In this document: piece after piece, positions 38,681-46,036 of the stretch
Numbering within the stretch: the first letter of the stretch is position 1
How the letters are laid out: every line of letters begins with the position of its first letter
Made by a program: the position numbers and the translations under genes
The notes under the pieces: model-generated
What the model was told of the DNA's origin: nothing
What the model saw: only the letters and a program-made list of their open reading frames with translations
The model's database searches: none
Source: Halomonas jincaotanensis
Lineage (GTDB): Bacteria; Pseudomonadota; Gammaproteobacteria; Pseudomonadales; Halomonadaceae
Direction: 5' to 3'
DNA: 64,000 bases
Assembly: GCF_018448785.1 (NCBI RefSeq)
Contig: NZ_JAHCLU010000005.1
Span: forward strand, 1-64,000

Positions 38681-39994
38681 TTGGACACACGTTTTCCCTT
38701 CGTCGACTGGTTCCGCAATTCCTCGCCCTACATCAACGCTCACCGGGGCCGAACCTTCGTCATCCTTATCGAGGGTGAAGCGATGGCGCGTGGGCGTGGC
38801 GAGCAGCTGATCCAGGACCTGGCGCTACTGCACACCCTCGGCGTGCACCTGGTTGTGGTGTTCGGTATTCGTCCCCAAGTCCGCCAGGCACTCGACGAGG
38901 CGGGTATTGTGCCCGAGCGGCATCAGGGGCGTTGGGTCGCCGATCCGCCGATCATGGATGTCGTCGAGCGCATTGCCGCCGAACAACGCATGTGGCTGGA
39001 AGCGCGGTTGTCGCTGGGGCTGCCCAACACGCCGCTGCACGGCATGGAGCTGACGGCGATTTCCGGCAACTTGGTGATGGCCAAGCCCCTGGGCGTGCGC
39101 GAGGGTGTCGACTTTCATCACAGCGGCGAAGTACGCCGTGTGCGCTCGCGCGTTATCCAGGGGCTGCTCGAGAAGGGCTCACTGGTGGTGCTGCCGCCGC
39201 TGGGCTTTTCCAGCACGGGGGAGGTGTTCGACCTTGATGCTGCCGAGGTCGCCCAGCACGCCGCTGTGGCACTATCCGCCGACAAGCTCATTCTACTAGG
39301 CGAGGCCAGCGGCCTGTTCGACCAGAGCGGTCAGATGCAGCGCCAACTCACCCCCGCCGAAGCCGAGCCCTTGCTGAGCCAGGCGGAAACCGCGGATGAA
39401 ACGGCGCGGCATCTACGCGCCGCCTGCGCCGCGGCACGGCATGGCGTGGGGCGCACCCATCTGCTCTCTTGGCATGACCATGATGCGCTGCTCGGCGAGC
39501 TGTTCACCCGTGATGGGGTGGGCACCATGATCACCCAGCATCGCTACGAGCAGCTGCGCCCCGCCGAGCTTGGTGACATCGGCGGCCTGCTCGAGCTACT
39601 CGACCCGCTGGAGCGCTGTGGCATGCTGGTGCCACGCTCCCGCGAGCGTCTCGAACACGAGATCGACGATTACCTGGTGATCGAGCGCGATGGCATGATC
39701 ATCGGCTGCGCGGCCCTGCATGCCTTTGCAGACGCCGAGATGGCCGAACTCGCCTGCGTGGCGGTGCACGACGACTATCGCGGCGGCGCGCGCGGCGAAC
39801 TGCTGTTGGCCGAGATCGAGCGTCGCGCCCGGCGGTTGGGTCTCTCGGCCCTGTTTGCCTTGACCACCCATACGGCGCATTGGTTCTTCGAGCACGGCTT
39901 TGGTCTGGCCGATATCGCCGACCTGCCGCCCCTGAAACGCGACACCTACAGCTACGCCCGCAAATCGAAGATTCTCGTCAAGCCGCTCGGCTAA
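38681..39994 (+). CDS. argA: N-acetylglutamate synthase ArgA
   Basis: First enzyme of arginine synthesis: acetyl-CoA + glutamate to N-acetylglutamate (437 aa, typical). It has an amino-acid kinase-like N-terminal domain (GRTFVILIEGEAMA, VVVFGIRPQV) that binds arginine for feedback inhibition. The C-terminal GNAT domain has VAVHDDYRGGARGELLL for acetyl-CoA binding and WFFEHGF. The start is TTG at 38681 with GGAG 7 nt upstream. It is transcribed alone; no arginine-repressor box was identified. Confidence 0.95.
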   Translation: MDTRFPFVDWFRNSSPYINAHRGRTFVILIEGEAMARGRGEQLIQDLALLHTLGVHLVVVFGIRPQVRQALDEAGIVPERHQGRWVADPPIMDVVERIAAEQRMWLEARLSLGLPNTPLHGMELTAISGNLVMAKPLGVREGVDFHHSGEVRRVRSRVIQGLLEKGSLVVLPPLGFSSTGEVFDLDAAEVAQHAAVALSADKLILLGEASGLFDQSGQMQRQLTPAEAEPLLSQAETADETARHLRAACAAARHGVGRTHLLSWHDHDALLGELFTRDGVGTMITQHRYEQLRPAELGDIGGLLELLDPLERCGMLVPRSRERLEHEIDDYLVIERDGMIIGCAALHAFADAEMAELACVAVHDDYRGGARGELLLAEIERRARRLGLSALFALTTHTAHWFFEHGFGLADIADLPPLKRDTYSYARKSKILVKPLG

Positions 39995-40047
39995 GCGGCG
40001 CCTGTCATGGTGTTGTCACATTCGTCGTTGCTTCTTGTTCCCTTGAT

Positions 40048-40065
40048 GGTCGTTGCCACATGACA
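40048..40065. promoter_or_regulatory. Second, imperfect GlrR-type site
   Basis: GGTC-N10-GACA differs from the TGTC-N10-GACA activator site at one base. It lies 99 bp upstream of the exact site, in line with the multiple upstream sites found at enterobacterial glmY. Confidence 0.35.
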
Positions 40066-40146
40066 TCGGGTCCGTCAGCACTGTCGCCAAATGCATACAC
40101 CTTAATACATTGTCATTGAAGGGGTTTTTAGTTTAGCGGTAATGCG

Positions 40147-40164
40147 TGTCTCTAAAAAAAGACA
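40147..40164. promoter_or_regulatory. GlrR (QseF) activator site TGTC-N10-GACA
   Basis: Exact match to the published GlrR-binding consensus TGTC-N10-GACA, with an A-rich centre. It lies about 145 bp before the start point predicted from the sigma54-like promoter, a normal distance for an enhancer-binding protein. The gene for this activator, qseF, is 3 kb downstream in the same direction. Confidence 0.6.
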
Positions 40165-40273
40165 AATCAGCGCCTGACAAGACGATGTTTCGTCGATTTT
40201 GGCATCCAGGCGTATCGCTCCTTACGCTTATGTGCATTTCAACTTTCTGAAAATTAAGCGAATAGATCGTTTC

Positions 40274-40289
40274 TGGCACGGCGTTGGCA
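40274..40289 (+). promoter_or_regulatory. Sigma54 (-24/-12) promoter
   Basis: TGGCACG-N4-TGGCA keeps the invariant GG-N10-GC spacing; the -24 half is perfect and the -12 half differs from TTGCA at one base. The start point would be near 40300. A weaker -24-like TGGCAC at 40633 lacks the GC. Confidence 0.55.
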
Positions 40290-40454
40290 AATAGATAGGT
40301 GAGCAACAGAAGCGGTTTGTCACGGCTCAAGCTGCTTTTGATCGCCAAGGACGTTCGGGTCAACACTGCCCTGTGCACCTGAACCCTGAAACGATCAGCG
40401 TTTGCTCAAAGCGATGTATGACTTAAGGTTGCGATGAGACGGGTTCGCCAAATA

Positions 40455-40497
40455 GGCAAGGACGTGACCCGAACGGGCAAGGAGGCCTAGGCAAGGA
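40455..40497 (+). repeat. Three GGCAAGGA motifs
   Basis: Identical 8-mers at 40455-40462, 40476-40483 and 40490-40497 with unrelated spacers. AAGGA/AnGGA is the core of CsrA/RsmA binding sites in RNA. Confidence 0.7.
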
Positions 40498-40503
40498 TGC
40501 CTC

Positions 40504-40521
40504 ATCCCTCTTCGGAGGGAT
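40504..40521 (+). other. UUCG-capped RNA hairpin
   Basis: ATCCCTC-TTCG-GAGGGAT: a perfect 7-bp stem with a very stable UUCG tetraloop, directly after the third GGCAAGGA. Confidence 0.6.
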
Positions 40522-40750
40522 CGAATTGAGCACCGGCGCTGCCGACGATGTCGGGGGCGACGATGTCAGGAACGAAGCAGGGCGGCGCGCCACGCGATGG
40601 TTCGCCACCCGCATGTGGAGGTCAGCCCCTGGTGGCACATGACATTCGTATGGCTTCGTGGGCCCCGGCCCATCTGGATTGTGGATAGACCCGGTTGATC
40701 AGGCAACGGGACTTTCTCCTCTCCATACCCCTTCAGTTCCCTGCGTATTG

Positions 40751-40774
40751 GGCCGGCTATGCCGGCCTTTTTTA
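40751..40774 (+). terminator. Strong terminator of the candidate small RNA
   Basis: GGCCGGC-TAT-GCCGGCC followed by a run of seven T residues. It ends 80 bp before qseE, so any transcript starting upstream is either ended here or reads through into qseEGF. Confidence 0.88.
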
Positions 40775-40853
40775 TGTTTTACGCCGACGAAGGCGATGCG
40801 GGCTGTACGAGTAAGGCTGACCAGCGGAACTCTGTTATTCTTTGGGGAAGACG

Positions 40854-42557
40854 ATGGCAGTACCTTTCACCCCCCTGCAAAGAATGCTGGTCATGATCTC
40901 TCGGGTTTCCCGCCGCTGGCGCCCTCGCTCGCTGCTGCAGCTCGTGCTACTCGCCTTTCTCGTGGTGATGTTGCCGCTTGCCATACTGATGTTCCAGGCC
41001 GGCCAGGCGCTCACCGAGCTGTCACGACTAGCGGACGTGAGCGCTCGCCAGGCTGTCGAAGAGACGCGCCGTGCGCGAACACTCAGCGCCTTGGCGCTGG
41101 AGATAGAACGCGGTGCTCGCCAGTATGCCGTCCTGGAGCAAGAGAGCCTACTGGATATCTACTACGAACGACTGGATGAATACGAGACGCTGTTGGCCCG
41201 GCATCGCGAGCTGCTACCCAATAACCCGGAGGTAGCGGCGCTCGATGCTCAGCTGGATGAATTGGCTCGCCTACCGCTACTGCCCATCGAGGACTTCCGT
41301 GAGCGTCTGGTGGCCTTCTACCCATTTTCCCAGAACACCGACGCCATGCGCCAAGCCACCAACGACCAGATCGACCTGCGCATCGAGGCGATCCGCGAGC
41401 GTGCGATGAACGTGCAGAACCGACTATGGCTGCAGACCGCTGCGATGGTTTCTGCCAGCCTGATCCTGATGCTCTACTTCTCCTGGCTGATCATCCGTCC
41501 GGTGCGCCAGCTCGAGCGACGTATCCTGGGCTTGGGCAGTGGCAAAAACCACCGGGCGATGACTCGTATTCAGGGCCCCGCGGAGCTGGTCCAGCTAGAC
41601 CGACGACTCGACTGGTTGGCCTCGCGACTCGAGGAGCTCGAGGAGCAGAAACAGCAGTTCTTGCGCCACATGTCCCATGAACTCAAGACGCCGCTGGCCA
41701 GCGTGCGCGAGGGCTCTTCGCTGCTTGCCGATGGGGTGGCCGGCGAGCTCACCCCCCGCCAACGCGAGATTCTCGACCTGATCGACGCCAGCGGGAGTGA
41801 ATTGCAGCGTCTGATCGAACAGCTTCTCGACTACAACCTCCTGCAACACAATCGTGCCATCGAGCCTGAGCATCTGGACATTGCCACCGTGATCAAGGAG
41901 GTGCTCGCCAAGCATCGCCTGGCCCTGGACAACAAGGGCATGCGTGTTACCTGCTTCGATGCCCCCCTCGAGTGGCAGGCCGATCGCACCGCCCTTATCT
42001 GTATCCTCGACAACCTGATATCCAATGCCATTGCCTATGGGGAAGACGGCGGCTGGCTGGAGATACGTGCCCACCGTCGACATGATGACTTGATCATCGA
42101 GGTGGCCAATAGTGGTGAGACGATTGTCGGTGAGGATCGTGAGCGGCTATTCGAGGCATTCTATCAGGGTCGTATTCGTCGCAGGGGCCCGCTCAAGGGA
42201 TCCGGCATCGGCCTCTCGGTGGCCGCCGACTGCGCTCGCCTGCATCACGGCAGCCTGGCGCTAGTGGATGATTCGCGCTTCGACGTGTGCTTCCGTTTGA
42301 CCCTACCGAGGCTGACCAGCGCGTTACCCACCGCGGATGGGTCGCTTGAAAACACGACCTATGACGACGAAATCTACACCGCTGCGCCCTATGAAAAAGA
42401 TCTCTTCAAAAAAGCGCCCTTCAATAAAGCGCCCTTAAAAATAGAGCCCCATTTCAATGAGACCAATATCAATGCGCCCCGAGCCAACGAAGAGGGTCGC
42501 CACGAACCACGGCTCGGGGCGGGGCCTACTCATCTCACTGCCAGGAAACCACGATAA
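40854..42557 (+). CDS. qseE: Sensor histidine kinase QseE/GlrK
   Basis: Membrane histidine kinase (567 aa) pairing with QseF/GlrR. Helices at about 28-50 and 190-212 flank a mostly helical periplasmic domain. HAMP precedes the HisKA box FLRHMSHELKTPL with phospho-acceptor His275. The ATPase domain has DNLISNAIAYGEDGG (N box) and GSGIGLSVAADC. The start ATG at 40854 has GGGGAAG close upstream. About 65 residues follow the ATPase domain; they are low-complexity and repetitive (KKAPFNKAPLK), encoded by AT-rich DNA unlike the rest of the gene. Confidence 0.92.
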   Translation: MAVPFTPLQRMLVMISRVSRRWRPRSLLQLVLLAFLVVMLPLAILMFQAGQALTELSRLADVSARQAVEETRRARTLSALALEIERGARQYAVLEQESLLDIYYERLDEYETLLARHRELLPNNPEVAALDAQLDELARLPLLPIEDFRERLVAFYPFSQNTDAMRQATNDQIDLRIEAIRERAMNVQNRLWLQTAAMVSASLILMLYFSWLIIRPVRQLERRILGLGSGKNHRAMTRIQGPAELVQLDRRLDWLASRLEELEEQKQQFLRHMSHELKTPLASVREGSSLLADGVAGELTPRQREILDLIDASGSELQRLIEQLLDYNLLQHNRAIEPEHLDIATVIKEVLAKHRLALDNKGMRVTCFDAPLEWQADRTALICILDNLISNAIAYGEDGGWLEIRAHRRHDDLIIEVANSGETIVGEDRERLFEAFYQGRIRRRGPLKGSGIGLSVAADCARLHHGSLALVDDSRFDVCFRLTLPRLTSALPTADGSLENTTYDDEIYTAAPYEKDLFKKAPFNKAPLKIEPHFNETNINAPRANEEGRHEPRLGAGPTHLTARKPR

Positions 42558-43128
42558 TGCAACGACATTGGCGAATCGGCCCGCTGCTGGTCTGTCTGAT
42601 GGCCCTCTTGCTGGCCGGTTGTGAATTGATTGCCGACGAGCCTTTTGGCCGGCAGAACGACACCGAGTCCGTCCAGCCTGTCGCGACCGGCTGCAAGGCG
42701 CTTTTGCCTAACTTCGACGATGCTCCCTGTCTGCTGTCCGACTGGATCGCTTTCGGTCTGGCCTCCCAGCGCGGCGACCGGGAGTGGCGCGACGACATGC
42801 TGACGCGCCTTGAGGCCGAGACCACCGAGCGTCGACTGGCCAGGGCGGTCGCGCTCACCTGGGGCAGCGAGAGTGAATGGGAACGCGCCTCGGAGCTTTA
42901 CAAGGCGGACCTTCATGCCGCCCCCGTCGAGTTGCAGCCACTGCTGCGTTACTGGCTCAATGAACTGGAGGGCAGGAGGGCCATGAGTGGGCGTCTCGCC
43001 AGCTCCCGTGAGGAGATCGCGGCGCTGGAAGAAGAAAACGCCACCCTAGACGAGAAGCTCGAGGCGCTGACCGCCATTGAGCACAATATCAACCTTCGAC
43101 AGCAGATCGATGATCGGGAGACAACGCC

Positions 43129-43132
<4 letters not shown>
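42557..43132 (+). CDS. qseG: Outer-membrane lipoprotein QseG (YfhG)
   Basis: 191-aa lipoprotein: signal peptide ending in the lipobox LLAGC with lipidated Cys22, then a helical, TPR-like domain and a C-terminal coiled coil (SREEIAALEEENATLDEKLEAL). QseG interacts with QseE in enterobacteria and can relay RapZ-related signals. The start overlaps the qseE stop by one base (TAATG), and its own stop overlaps the GTG of qseF. Confidence 0.88.
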
Positions 43133-44547
<1,415 letters not shown>

Positions 44548-44551
44548 CCTA

Positions 44552-46036
44552 ATGGCACGCCTCGAGGCGTCACCGGGACGCTCGCCTGCCCGGGGTCACG
44601 ACAAGCCGCGCTGGTGGCGCCGCAAGCACTGGTACCTGGTGCTGTTCCTGTTGGCCTATGTAGGTGTGTTGCTTTATCACCAGTACAAGCCACTGCCGGA
44701 CGGTATCTCCTACGCCAGCCAGGAATACCGCGTCGAGGACGTCAAGTTCTATCGCGACCTGACCCACCACGAAAACGATATCCGCCATGTCGATCAGGAG
44801 ATATTCGCCCGCCTGGAACAGATGATCGAGGAGGCGGAGGACTTCATCGTCATCGATGTCTTCCTCATGGACGGTCGCGTCAGCGACGCATCGGTCGACT
44901 ATCCACCGATCGCCGATGACCTCATGCAGCAATTGATAACCAAGAAATCGGCCAATCCGGAGATGCCGATCGTCTTCATTTCCGACGCGGTCAACACCGG
45001 CTACGGCTCCTATCCGGCCGATTGGCTCGAGCCGATGAAGGCGGCGGGCATCGAGGTAGTGATGTCGAATCTACATCCCTTGCGTGATTCGACCCCCGTC
45101 TACTCGACCCTATGGCGTATGGGGCTGCAATGGTTCGGCCAGGAAGGCACGGGCTGGCTGGAAAACCCCTTCGTCGACGACGGGCCGCGCATGACCCTGC
45201 GCTCCTACCTCAAGCTCTTCAACATCAAGGCCAACCATCGCAAGGTCTACATGACCGAGCGCTCTGCCCTGGTCGCCTCGGCAAACGCCCATACCGAGTC
45301 CGGCTTTCACGGGAACGTCGCCTTCGAGGTCACCGGGCCGATCATCGCCGAGATGCTGAAAGCCGAGCAGGCGGTGGTCGACCTCGGCGATTCGGGGGTC
45401 GTCCTGCCTGACGTCGAGGCGGAGGAGACCGCCAACGGGGGGTCGCTGCACATTCAGTACACAACCGAAGGGCAGACTCAGAAAAACGTGCTCGCCACCC
45501 TGGCGCGGGCCGGTCCCGGCAACGAGCTCTGGCTCGGGATGTTCTATCTCGCCGACCGTCAGGTGGTCAATGCCATCACCGCCGCGGCCAACCGTGGAGT
45601 CGAGGTGTCAATGATCCTCGACCCCAACGAGACCGCATTCGGCAGGAAGAAAACGGGCCTTCCCAACCGACCCGTGGTCCAGGAACTGGTGGAGGATACC
45701 GACAGTAAGGTCCGCGTACGCTGGTATGCCGTCGGGGACGAGCAGTACCACCCGAAGATGATGATGCTCAAGCAGGATGAGCGCAGCACTATCATCAGCG
45801 GCTCGACCAACTTCACGAAGCGCAACCTCGCCGATTACAACCTCGAGGCCGGGCTGACGATCTGGGGCCCGCCGGAGGCCGAGGTAATGCGCGAGGTCGA
45901 GGCCTACTTCGCTACCCTGTGGAGCAATCGCGGCGGCGCCTACACCCTCGATCAGGATGAGTATCAGAACGTGCTCTCCCAAGGGCAGCGCGTCGTCTAT
46001 GCGGTGCAAACTTTCTTCAATCTGACCAGCTATTAG
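44552..46036 (+). CDS. Phospholipase D-family protein (cardiolipin synthase-like)
   Basis: 494-aa protein with one N-terminal helix (about 27-43) and two PLD domains. The HKD motifs appear as NHRKVYMTERSALVASAN and YHPKMMMLKQDERSTIISGSTNF; both keep His and Lys. The Asp of the first is replaced by Glu/Arg around the usual position, the second keeps D. It could be a cardiolipin synthase-like phosphatidyltransferase or phosphodiesterase in the inner membrane facing the periplasm. It starts 4 bp after qseF, so it may be part of the qseEGF transcript. Confidence 0.82.
   Translation: MARLEASPGRSPARGHDKPRWWRRKHWYLVLFLLAYVGVLLYHQYKPLPDGISYASQEYRVEDVKFYRDLTHHENDIRHVDQEIFARLEQMIEEAEDFIVIDVFLMDGRVSDASVDYPPIADDLMQQLITKKSANPEMPIVFISDAVNTGYGSYPADWLEPMKAAGIEVVMSNLHPLRDSTPVYSTLWRMGLQWFGQEGTGWLENPFVDDGPRMTLRSYLKLFNIKANHRKVYMTERSALVASANAHTESGFHGNVAFEVTGPIIAEMLKAEQAVVDLGDSGVVLPDVEAEETANGGSLHIQYTTEGQTQKNVLATLARAGPGNELWLGMFYLADRQVVNAITAAANRGVEVSMILDPNETAFGRKKTGLPNRPVVQELVEDTDSKVRVRWYAVGDEQYHPKMMMLKQDERSTIISGSTNFTKRNLADYNLEAGLTIWGPPEAEVMREVEAYFATLWSNRGGAYTLDQDEYQNVLSQGQRVVYAVQTFFNLTSY

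Follow-up and report, generated by a model that had tools for sequence, protein, structure and literature searches.

A predicted sigma54- and QseF-controlled RNA with CsrA-type hairpins upstream of qseEGF in Halomonas jincaotanensis and related Halomonadaceae

Results

Organization of the argA-qseE interval

The window examined in this study, a stretch of 64,000 nucleotides of Halomonas jincaotanensis DNA, carries argA at 38681-39994, and 847 bp separate argA from the first possible start of qseE. Downstream lie, all on the plus strand, a QseE-like histidine kinase (40854..42557), a small protein in the qseG position (42557..43132), and a QseF/GlrR sigma54-dependent response regulator (43129..44547), which is the presumed activator of the RNA gene described below. 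The first two are named by gene order; the kinase matches no NCBIfam equivalog above cut-off, and the small protein matches no family of NCBIfam or Pfam. QseF is a GlrR equivalog (NCBIfam NF011695, 788.6 bits against a cut-off of 763). Among the named loci that were fetched, that of Halomonas korlensis (L031) is the nearest, its ArgA being 96% and its QseE 82% identical. The protein encoded 3' of qseF (44552-46036) weakly resembles DrmC, the phospholipase D-like protein of DISARM (36 bits against a cut-off of 133), which we do not take as a defence call.

The argA-qseE interval contains a predicted noncoding RNA of about 475 nt on the plus strand (40300..40773), supported by conservation bounds, covariation, and fold. 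It includes a highly conserved core segment, AGCGATGTATGACTTAAGGTTGCGATGAGACGG (40410..40442, plus strand), seen in the alignment of relatives, and ends in an intrinsic terminator, GGGCCGGCTATGCCGGCCTTTTTT (40750-40773, plus strand), detected by a terminator scan and in the alignment. An earlier note on this DNA had proposed at this place, upstream of qseEGF, an undescribed small RNA gene transcribed from a sigma54 promoter and controlled by QseF/GlrR, comprising about 450 bp without coding capacity and a strong terminator at 40751-40774, in the direction of qseE-qseG-qseF. The present analysis supports that candidate, together with its direction, its lack of coding capacity, and its terminator. 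Simple scans are weak by themselves (three terminator-like sites against 1.6, sd 1.3, expected, and no sigma70-like site against 0.5 expected), and the evidence beyond chance is comparative. When 40000-40850 was used for a DNA search, 18 of the best 29 non-self matches among relatives started at 40267-40274 (query 268-275) and 26 ended at 40773-40779 (query 774-780), indicating that conservation runs from the promoter to the terminator.

The longest complete open reading frame within the window RNA has 27 amino acids, the longest in the RNAs of relatives has a median of 40 and a maximum of 142 amino acids, and of the 1324 gaps in the alignment with 80 relatives, 1185 have lengths that three does not divide. 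Judged from gap lengths and reading frames, protein coding is unlikely. A mechanical reading frame of 173 amino acids that begins at 40658, crosses the terminator, and enters qseE in a different frame was taken as chance. The window RNA folds better than its shuffles (z -2.9; 0 of 100 shuffles). Our confidence that the predicted RNA gene is real is very high.

Distribution and control region

The search set comprised 195 genomes, that of H. jincaotanensis included, all of its order, with 120 from its own family and 75 others. The DNA search gave matches in 108 of the 195 genomes, and a covariance model of the core found the RNA in 106, namely 105 of the 120 family members and, marginally (E 0.006), one of the 75 others. 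A model of the 3' end gave many weak matches outside the family (E 0.01 to 1e-6), which is what a terminator-like model would give, and these were not counted. We regard the predicted noncoding RNA gene as one of Halomonadaceae, and the H. jincaotanensis genome has one copy by either model. From part of the 108 matching genomes, 88 intergenic entries were extracted (the window and 87 loci); L001, L004, L028, L031, and L034 were left out as duplicates or as lacking a proper argA border, L093 was too short for the RNA alignment, and of the 82 rows then aligned L076 was dropped as misaligned. The final alignment has 81 rows with 79 distinct RNAs, and because the rows are related sequences, the counts given below are not independent.

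The promoter is a sigma54-type -24/-12 element with GG-N10-GC, CTGGCACGGCGTTGGCA (40273-40289, plus strand), as the earlier note had described, and predicts an RNA start at about 40300, from which all offsets are counted. In the alignment of relatives, the element TGGCA[C/T]...GC[A/T] is present in 81 of 81 orthologous leaders, in 80 at one offset and in one a base away. Upstream of it an exact QseF/GlrR site TGTC-N10-GACA, TGTCTCTAAAAAAAGACA, was confirmed at 40147-40164 on the plus strand, starting at -153 (about -152 in relatives). Two further sites on this strand match 7 of 8 positions: the QseF/GlrR-like site TGTCGCCAAATGCATACA (40082-40099), starting at -218 (about -217 in relatives), and the weaker GGTCGTTGCCACATGACA (40048-40065), starting at -252 (about -248 in relatives). 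The latter is the near-exact site that had been reported previously; it is present, but sits 3-4 bases off the third recurrent position, and the second upstream site that relatives keep in place is 40082-40099 rather than 40048. The best TGTC-N10-GACA match is exact in 29 of the 81 leaders, against 0.19% of 1620 dinucleotide shuffles, and reaches at least 7/8 in 66 leaders, against 4.1% of those shuffles; sites of at least 7/8 average 1.38 per leader against 0.04 in shuffles. Their starts in relatives recur at about -248, at -217 or -206, and at -152 or -141.

An IHF-like site with one mismatch to the consensus lies on the minus strand at 40240..40252. Scored with the IHF consensus, IHF-like sites with at most one mismatch occur in 73 of 81 leaders (13% of base shuffles), 65 of the 73 at the offset of the window or an adjacent one, and exact sites in 28 leaders (0.5% of base shuffles), starting about 60 bases before the predicted RNA start. 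In Escherichia coli, a passage of PMC6075780 describes glmY as having three QseF sites (TGT-N12-ACA), help from IHF, and a sigma54 promoter, and this matching architecture marks the Halomonas control region as one of the same kind. Conservation in related genomes had been set beforehand as the test of promoter and activator sites, and both are conserved in position, so that TGTC-N10-GACA with -24/-12, the feature of a sigma54/QseF (GlrR) regulon, is found across relatives. We predict with high confidence that the RNA gene is under sigma54/QseF control.

Core structure and CsrA-type elements

The consensus structure of the 110-nt core, built from 33 sequences, has 97.6% of cells paired, whereas slid controls have 27-49%. 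Eight of its 25 pairs changed on both sides, in 25 cells against 5.3 (sd 1.7), and 0 of 500 shuffles were as high. This RNA carries conserved CsrA-type ANGGA hairpins, a feature absent from the earlier note. Three ANGGA motifs occur in the core on the plus strand. Site 1, a CANGGA (40455..40464), lies on the 3' side of covarying stems, and the other two sit in ANGGAN six-base loops on short stems, namely hairpin 2 with hexaloop AAGGAG (40475..40488) and hairpin 3 with hexaloop AAGGAT (40489..40502). GGA is kept in 79, 81, and 81 of the 81 rows, respectively, every time with A at -2, so that both hairpins have ANGGA in 81 of 81, while the N is free (A45 C15 G8 T11 in site 1, A74 C4 T3 in hairpin 2, and A45 T33 G2 C1 in hairpin 3). 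Three of the four stem pairs of hairpin 2 change on both sides; the stem of hairpin 3 never varies, and covariation is therefore silent on it.

ANGGA occurs 5.16 times per RNA against 1.93 (sd 1.33) in shuffles, and CANGGA 3.53 times against 0.59. The enrichment is limited to these motifs, as total GGA is not enriched (9.2 per RNA against 10.9 in shuffles). Over the 81 orthologues, 128 ANGGA lie in hairpin loops against 21.8 (sd 3.8, 20 shuffles); in a control with eight altered motifs, one (ANGGC) exceeded shuffles, with 77 against 31, and the other seven did not. When both strands of the 64-kb window were scanned, the RNA core was the only 110-nt stretch with at least three CANGGA and at least two such hairpins. 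The genome has one csrA gene, the product of which is 51/55 identical to a solved CsrA. ANGGA with a free N corresponds to the known CsrA/RsmA binding element, and the three core motifs are predicted sites of this kind. Binding of RsmE to a hairpin with an ANGGAN hexaloop is described in a passage of PMC7652899. Our confidence that the RNA would bind CsrA is high for a judgment made from sequence only, and the conserved ANGGA hairpins, the ANGGA enrichment, and the single csrA gene together lead us to read it as a probable CsrA decoy.

The 3' element and a second RNA in relatives

The most conserved part of the RNA is a nearly invariant 3' element, CCTTCAGTTCCCTGCGTATT (40730..40749, plus strand), identified in the alignment as CCTTCAGTTCCCTGCGTA in orthologues and common to a second RNA of relatives. 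The centroid fold of the window RNA leaves most of it unpaired. With at most one mismatch allowed, the sRNA itself is the one place in the genome where the complement of the 13-mer at 40735-40747 is found, and the reversed control pattern occurs 8 times, a difference that possibly reflects avoidance. By this search the 3' element has no extended antisense target. The element could serve as a short seed, as a protein site, or as a signal for processing; we know of no counterpart among Csr/Rsm RNAs and of no sRNA seed that it resembles. Extra copies of the 3' element with terminator, at L117 ~2565 on the plus strand (genome G103) and at G103:C2:974130, belong to neither RNA.

A shorter second RNA, detected by a search with a stretch sharing mainly the 3' end, is present elsewhere in at least 22 genomes (L097-L118), and genome G108 has an additional longer second RNA (L042) that shares the core too. 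These second RNAs have their own sigma54-like element and terminator, and their 3' end is common with that of the main RNA. Upstream sites of at least 7/8, which lie near -206 and -141, precede 18 of 23 (7.7% of base shuffles), as IHF-like sites also do (18 of 23; 15% of shuffles); in L109 and L111 the promoter taken, the first candidate, is probably wrong. The stems of the short second RNAs differ from those of the main RNA, and ANGGA hairpins are kept in 15 of 22 and, by the rule applied here, absent from 7. Over the 22 short RNAs there are 19 ANGGA in hairpin loops against 1.4 (sd 1.3, maximum 6, 200 shuffles), and 11 altered motifs gave 0-6. The 3' element is in 22 of 22, partly by construction as it was the search key. 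Since seven of these RNAs have no ANGGA hairpin and all have the 3' element, there may be more to the function than binding CsrA. No second copy was found in the H. jincaotanensis genome by the DNA, core-model, and 3'-end-model searches.

Comparison with GlmY and GlmZ

GlmY of Enterobacteriaceae and the Halomonas RNA both lie directly upstream of qseEGF. The control regions are alike as well, with a sigma54 promoter, QseF sites, and an IHF site beside qseEGF, and in both systems there is a second related RNA under like control, here in some genomes. In contrast to GlmY, the Halomonas RNA is about 475 nt rather than about 184 nt long, its features are CsrA-type where those of GlmY are RapZ-type, and it is without similarity in sequence or covariance model. 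No Rfam family matches it at gathering score, the covariance check against Rfam GlmY/GlmZ suggested in the earlier note gave nothing in 39900-40900 even at E<=10, and blastn at E<=10 found no similar DNA in a collection of E. coli genomes, which bears out the expectation that there would be no evident sequence similarity to GlmY. The 3' segment paired with the glmS leader no better than shuffles did (-30.3 against -30.8, sd 3.5). On the results with Rfam, blastn, and the glmS-leader duplex, GlmY/GlmZ homology was rejected. Although rapZ is present in the genome, the alignment of its product with the 284-residue RapZ of E. coli stops at residue 279, and the end is different; according to a passage of PMC7073468, the RapZ RNA-binding domain is restricted to Enterobacteriaceae and coincides with GlmY/GlmZ. 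Position and control are thus GlmY-like and the molecule is not: the RNA sits where GlmY would be, without belonging to GlmY. The earlier note had proposed that this locus has a functional equivalent of GlmY. As a regulator of RapZ, GlmZ, and glmS this proposal is not supported, given the results on Rfam, E. coli DNA, the glmS leader, and the RapZ end; taken more broadly, as a decoy for a regulatory protein under the control of QseF, it may hold.

Discussion

We propose that this locus encodes a QseF/sigma54-driven, CsrA-sequestering RNA in the chromosomal position of GlmY, and assign this whole statement a probability of about 0.72. A structured RNA of about 475 nt, apparently noncoding and controlled by QseF and sigma54, very likely exists; our confidence in titration as its main function is moderate, which sets the value for the whole statement. 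What we infer from the DNA and its conservation is that the gene is transcribed, that QseF activates it, that the RNA binds CsrA, and that CsrA is titrated as a result. Phosphorylated QseF (GlrR) would occupy the two or three TGTC-N10-GACA sites that recur in position, and bending by IHF would help it to activate RNA polymerase-sigma54 at 40273-40289. The resulting transcript of about 475 nt, ending at the terminator at 40750-40773, would display at least three ANGGA elements, two of them in hexaloops, predicted to bind CsrA. An active QseEGF envelope sensor would in this way cause the RNA to accumulate and titrate CsrA off mRNAs, switching the Csr/Rsm regulon, and in some relatives a second, shorter RNA would be under like control.

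Known Csr-network RNAs are mainly under GacA/UvrY-type control. CsrB/CsrC and RsmX/RsmY/RsmZ share with the Halomonas RNA ANGGA in hairpin loops, the noncoding nature, an intrinsic terminator, and a tie to a two-component system. It is unlike them in its sigma54/QseF-type promoter, where theirs is GacA/UvrY controlled, and in having three strictly conserved sites only. One feature of Csr/Rsm-type RNAs, multiple ANGGA in hairpin loops, is found in this RNA; another, a high total number of GGA, is not. Three strictly conserved sites are also a much smaller number than the 22 GGA that a passage of PMC11882849 gives for CsrB. Rfam CsrB (RF00018) and PrrB_RsmZ (RF00166) have no match over gathering score in the window or in the H. 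jincaotanensis genome. In Pseudomonas, CrcZ is a CbrB/sigma54-driven Hfq decoy encoded beside its two-component system; it resembles the predicted decoy described here in being sigma54-driven beside a two-component system, and differs in the activator (CbrB) and in the sequestered protein (Hfq).

Other explanations can be weighed against this reading. The RNA could be a base-pairing sRNA, the active part of which is the 3' element, with CsrA merely modulating its stability or action. McaS, which is also named in a passage of PMC9788540, is an example of such a dual-function RNA. The conservation of the 3' element beyond all other parts, its occurrence in orthologues and second RNAs alike, its mostly unpaired state, and the 7 of 22 second-copy RNAs without an ANGGA hairpin all speak for base pairing. 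However, base pairing would not account for the three ANGGA elements and their free N, and the 13-base complement occurs, at up to one mismatch, only in the sRNA itself; that search covered long targets, of which it found none. We consider this explanation unlikely, if the least unlikely of those set against CsrA titration.

It is less probable still that the RNA is genuinely of the GlmY kind, acting as a decoy of RapZ so that a GlmZ partner is protected and glmS is raised. The position upstream of qseEGF, the type of control region, the homologous second RNA under like control in some relatives, and the presence of rapZ would agree with it, but the lack of an Rfam match and of similar E. coli DNA, the glmS-leader duplex at shuffle level, the single copy in the H. 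jincaotanensis genome, and the different C-terminal end of RapZ, whose RNA-binding domain is given as restricted to Enterobacteriaceae in the passage cited above (PMC7073468), do not. We see an equally slim chance that the interval is a long regulated 5' leader (attenuator) of qseEGF instead of a separate RNA. It does lie shortly before qseE and points the same way, and glmY-qseE-qseG-qseF of Proteus mirabilis is reported as one operon (PMC8745638). Against a leader, a strong conserved terminator precedes qseE, 22 genomes hold second copies elsewhere with their own sigma54-like element and terminator, and read-through from E. coli glmY to qseE is virtually absent according to a passage of PMC6075780.

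If the preferred reading of a QseF-driven CsrA decoy is true, an envelope-related two-component system and sigma54 would be wired directly into the Csr network, and the locus offers a concrete candidate CsrA antagonist with a presumed activator and predicted binding sites. It also suggests that a regulatory locus can stay in place and retain the logic of its promoter even as the RNA that it encodes becomes a different one. More tentatively, and with odds that we put below even, qseEGF may be a decoy-RNA cassette with a lineage-exchanged output, the RapZ decoy GlmY in Enterobacteriaceae and a sigma54-driven CsrA decoy in Halomonadaceae, the latter acting also through its 3' element and forming, with the second RNA of some species, a two-RNA QseF regulon. 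The matches listed in an open-access literature search included neither an account of this RNA nor a Csr RNA driven by sigma54 or QseF. In the table of one review, the sRNA that antagonises CsrA in Halomonas anticariensis is entered as unknown (PMC7366521).

The idea that the family has no Csr-type RNA besides the QseF-linked one was rejected in view of nine sub-threshold RsmZ matches in family members. Two of these (L211 and L213) look like chance, L214 and L215 look GGA-rich in other ways, and the remaining five share one GGA-rich RNA. Because relatives have this separate RNA, the QseF-linked one would be an additional, sigma54-driven input, one of several. In the H. jincaotanensis genome, the Gac-box TGTAAG-N6-CTTACA with at most one mismatch occurs in four places, the same as its reversed control, and by eye none of them starts a GGA-rich terminator-ended RNA (one L195 strand left out). 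L215, which is strongly GGA-rich (9 GGA in 130 nt) and scores 39 bits with RF00166 against a cut-off of 44, comes from G093, which belongs to the family but gave no QseF-linked RNA with the core model. The RNA shared by L207, L208, L209, L210, and L212 (G070, G045, G006, G014, and G103) is conserved, GGA-rich, terminator-ended, and about 110-150 nt long, and is probably a classical Csr RNA of Halomonadaceae. Upstream of it, L207 has three GTCA repeats at 11-nt spacing, which we take to be Pho-box-like; L209 and L210 have none, and L208 and L212 each have one pair.
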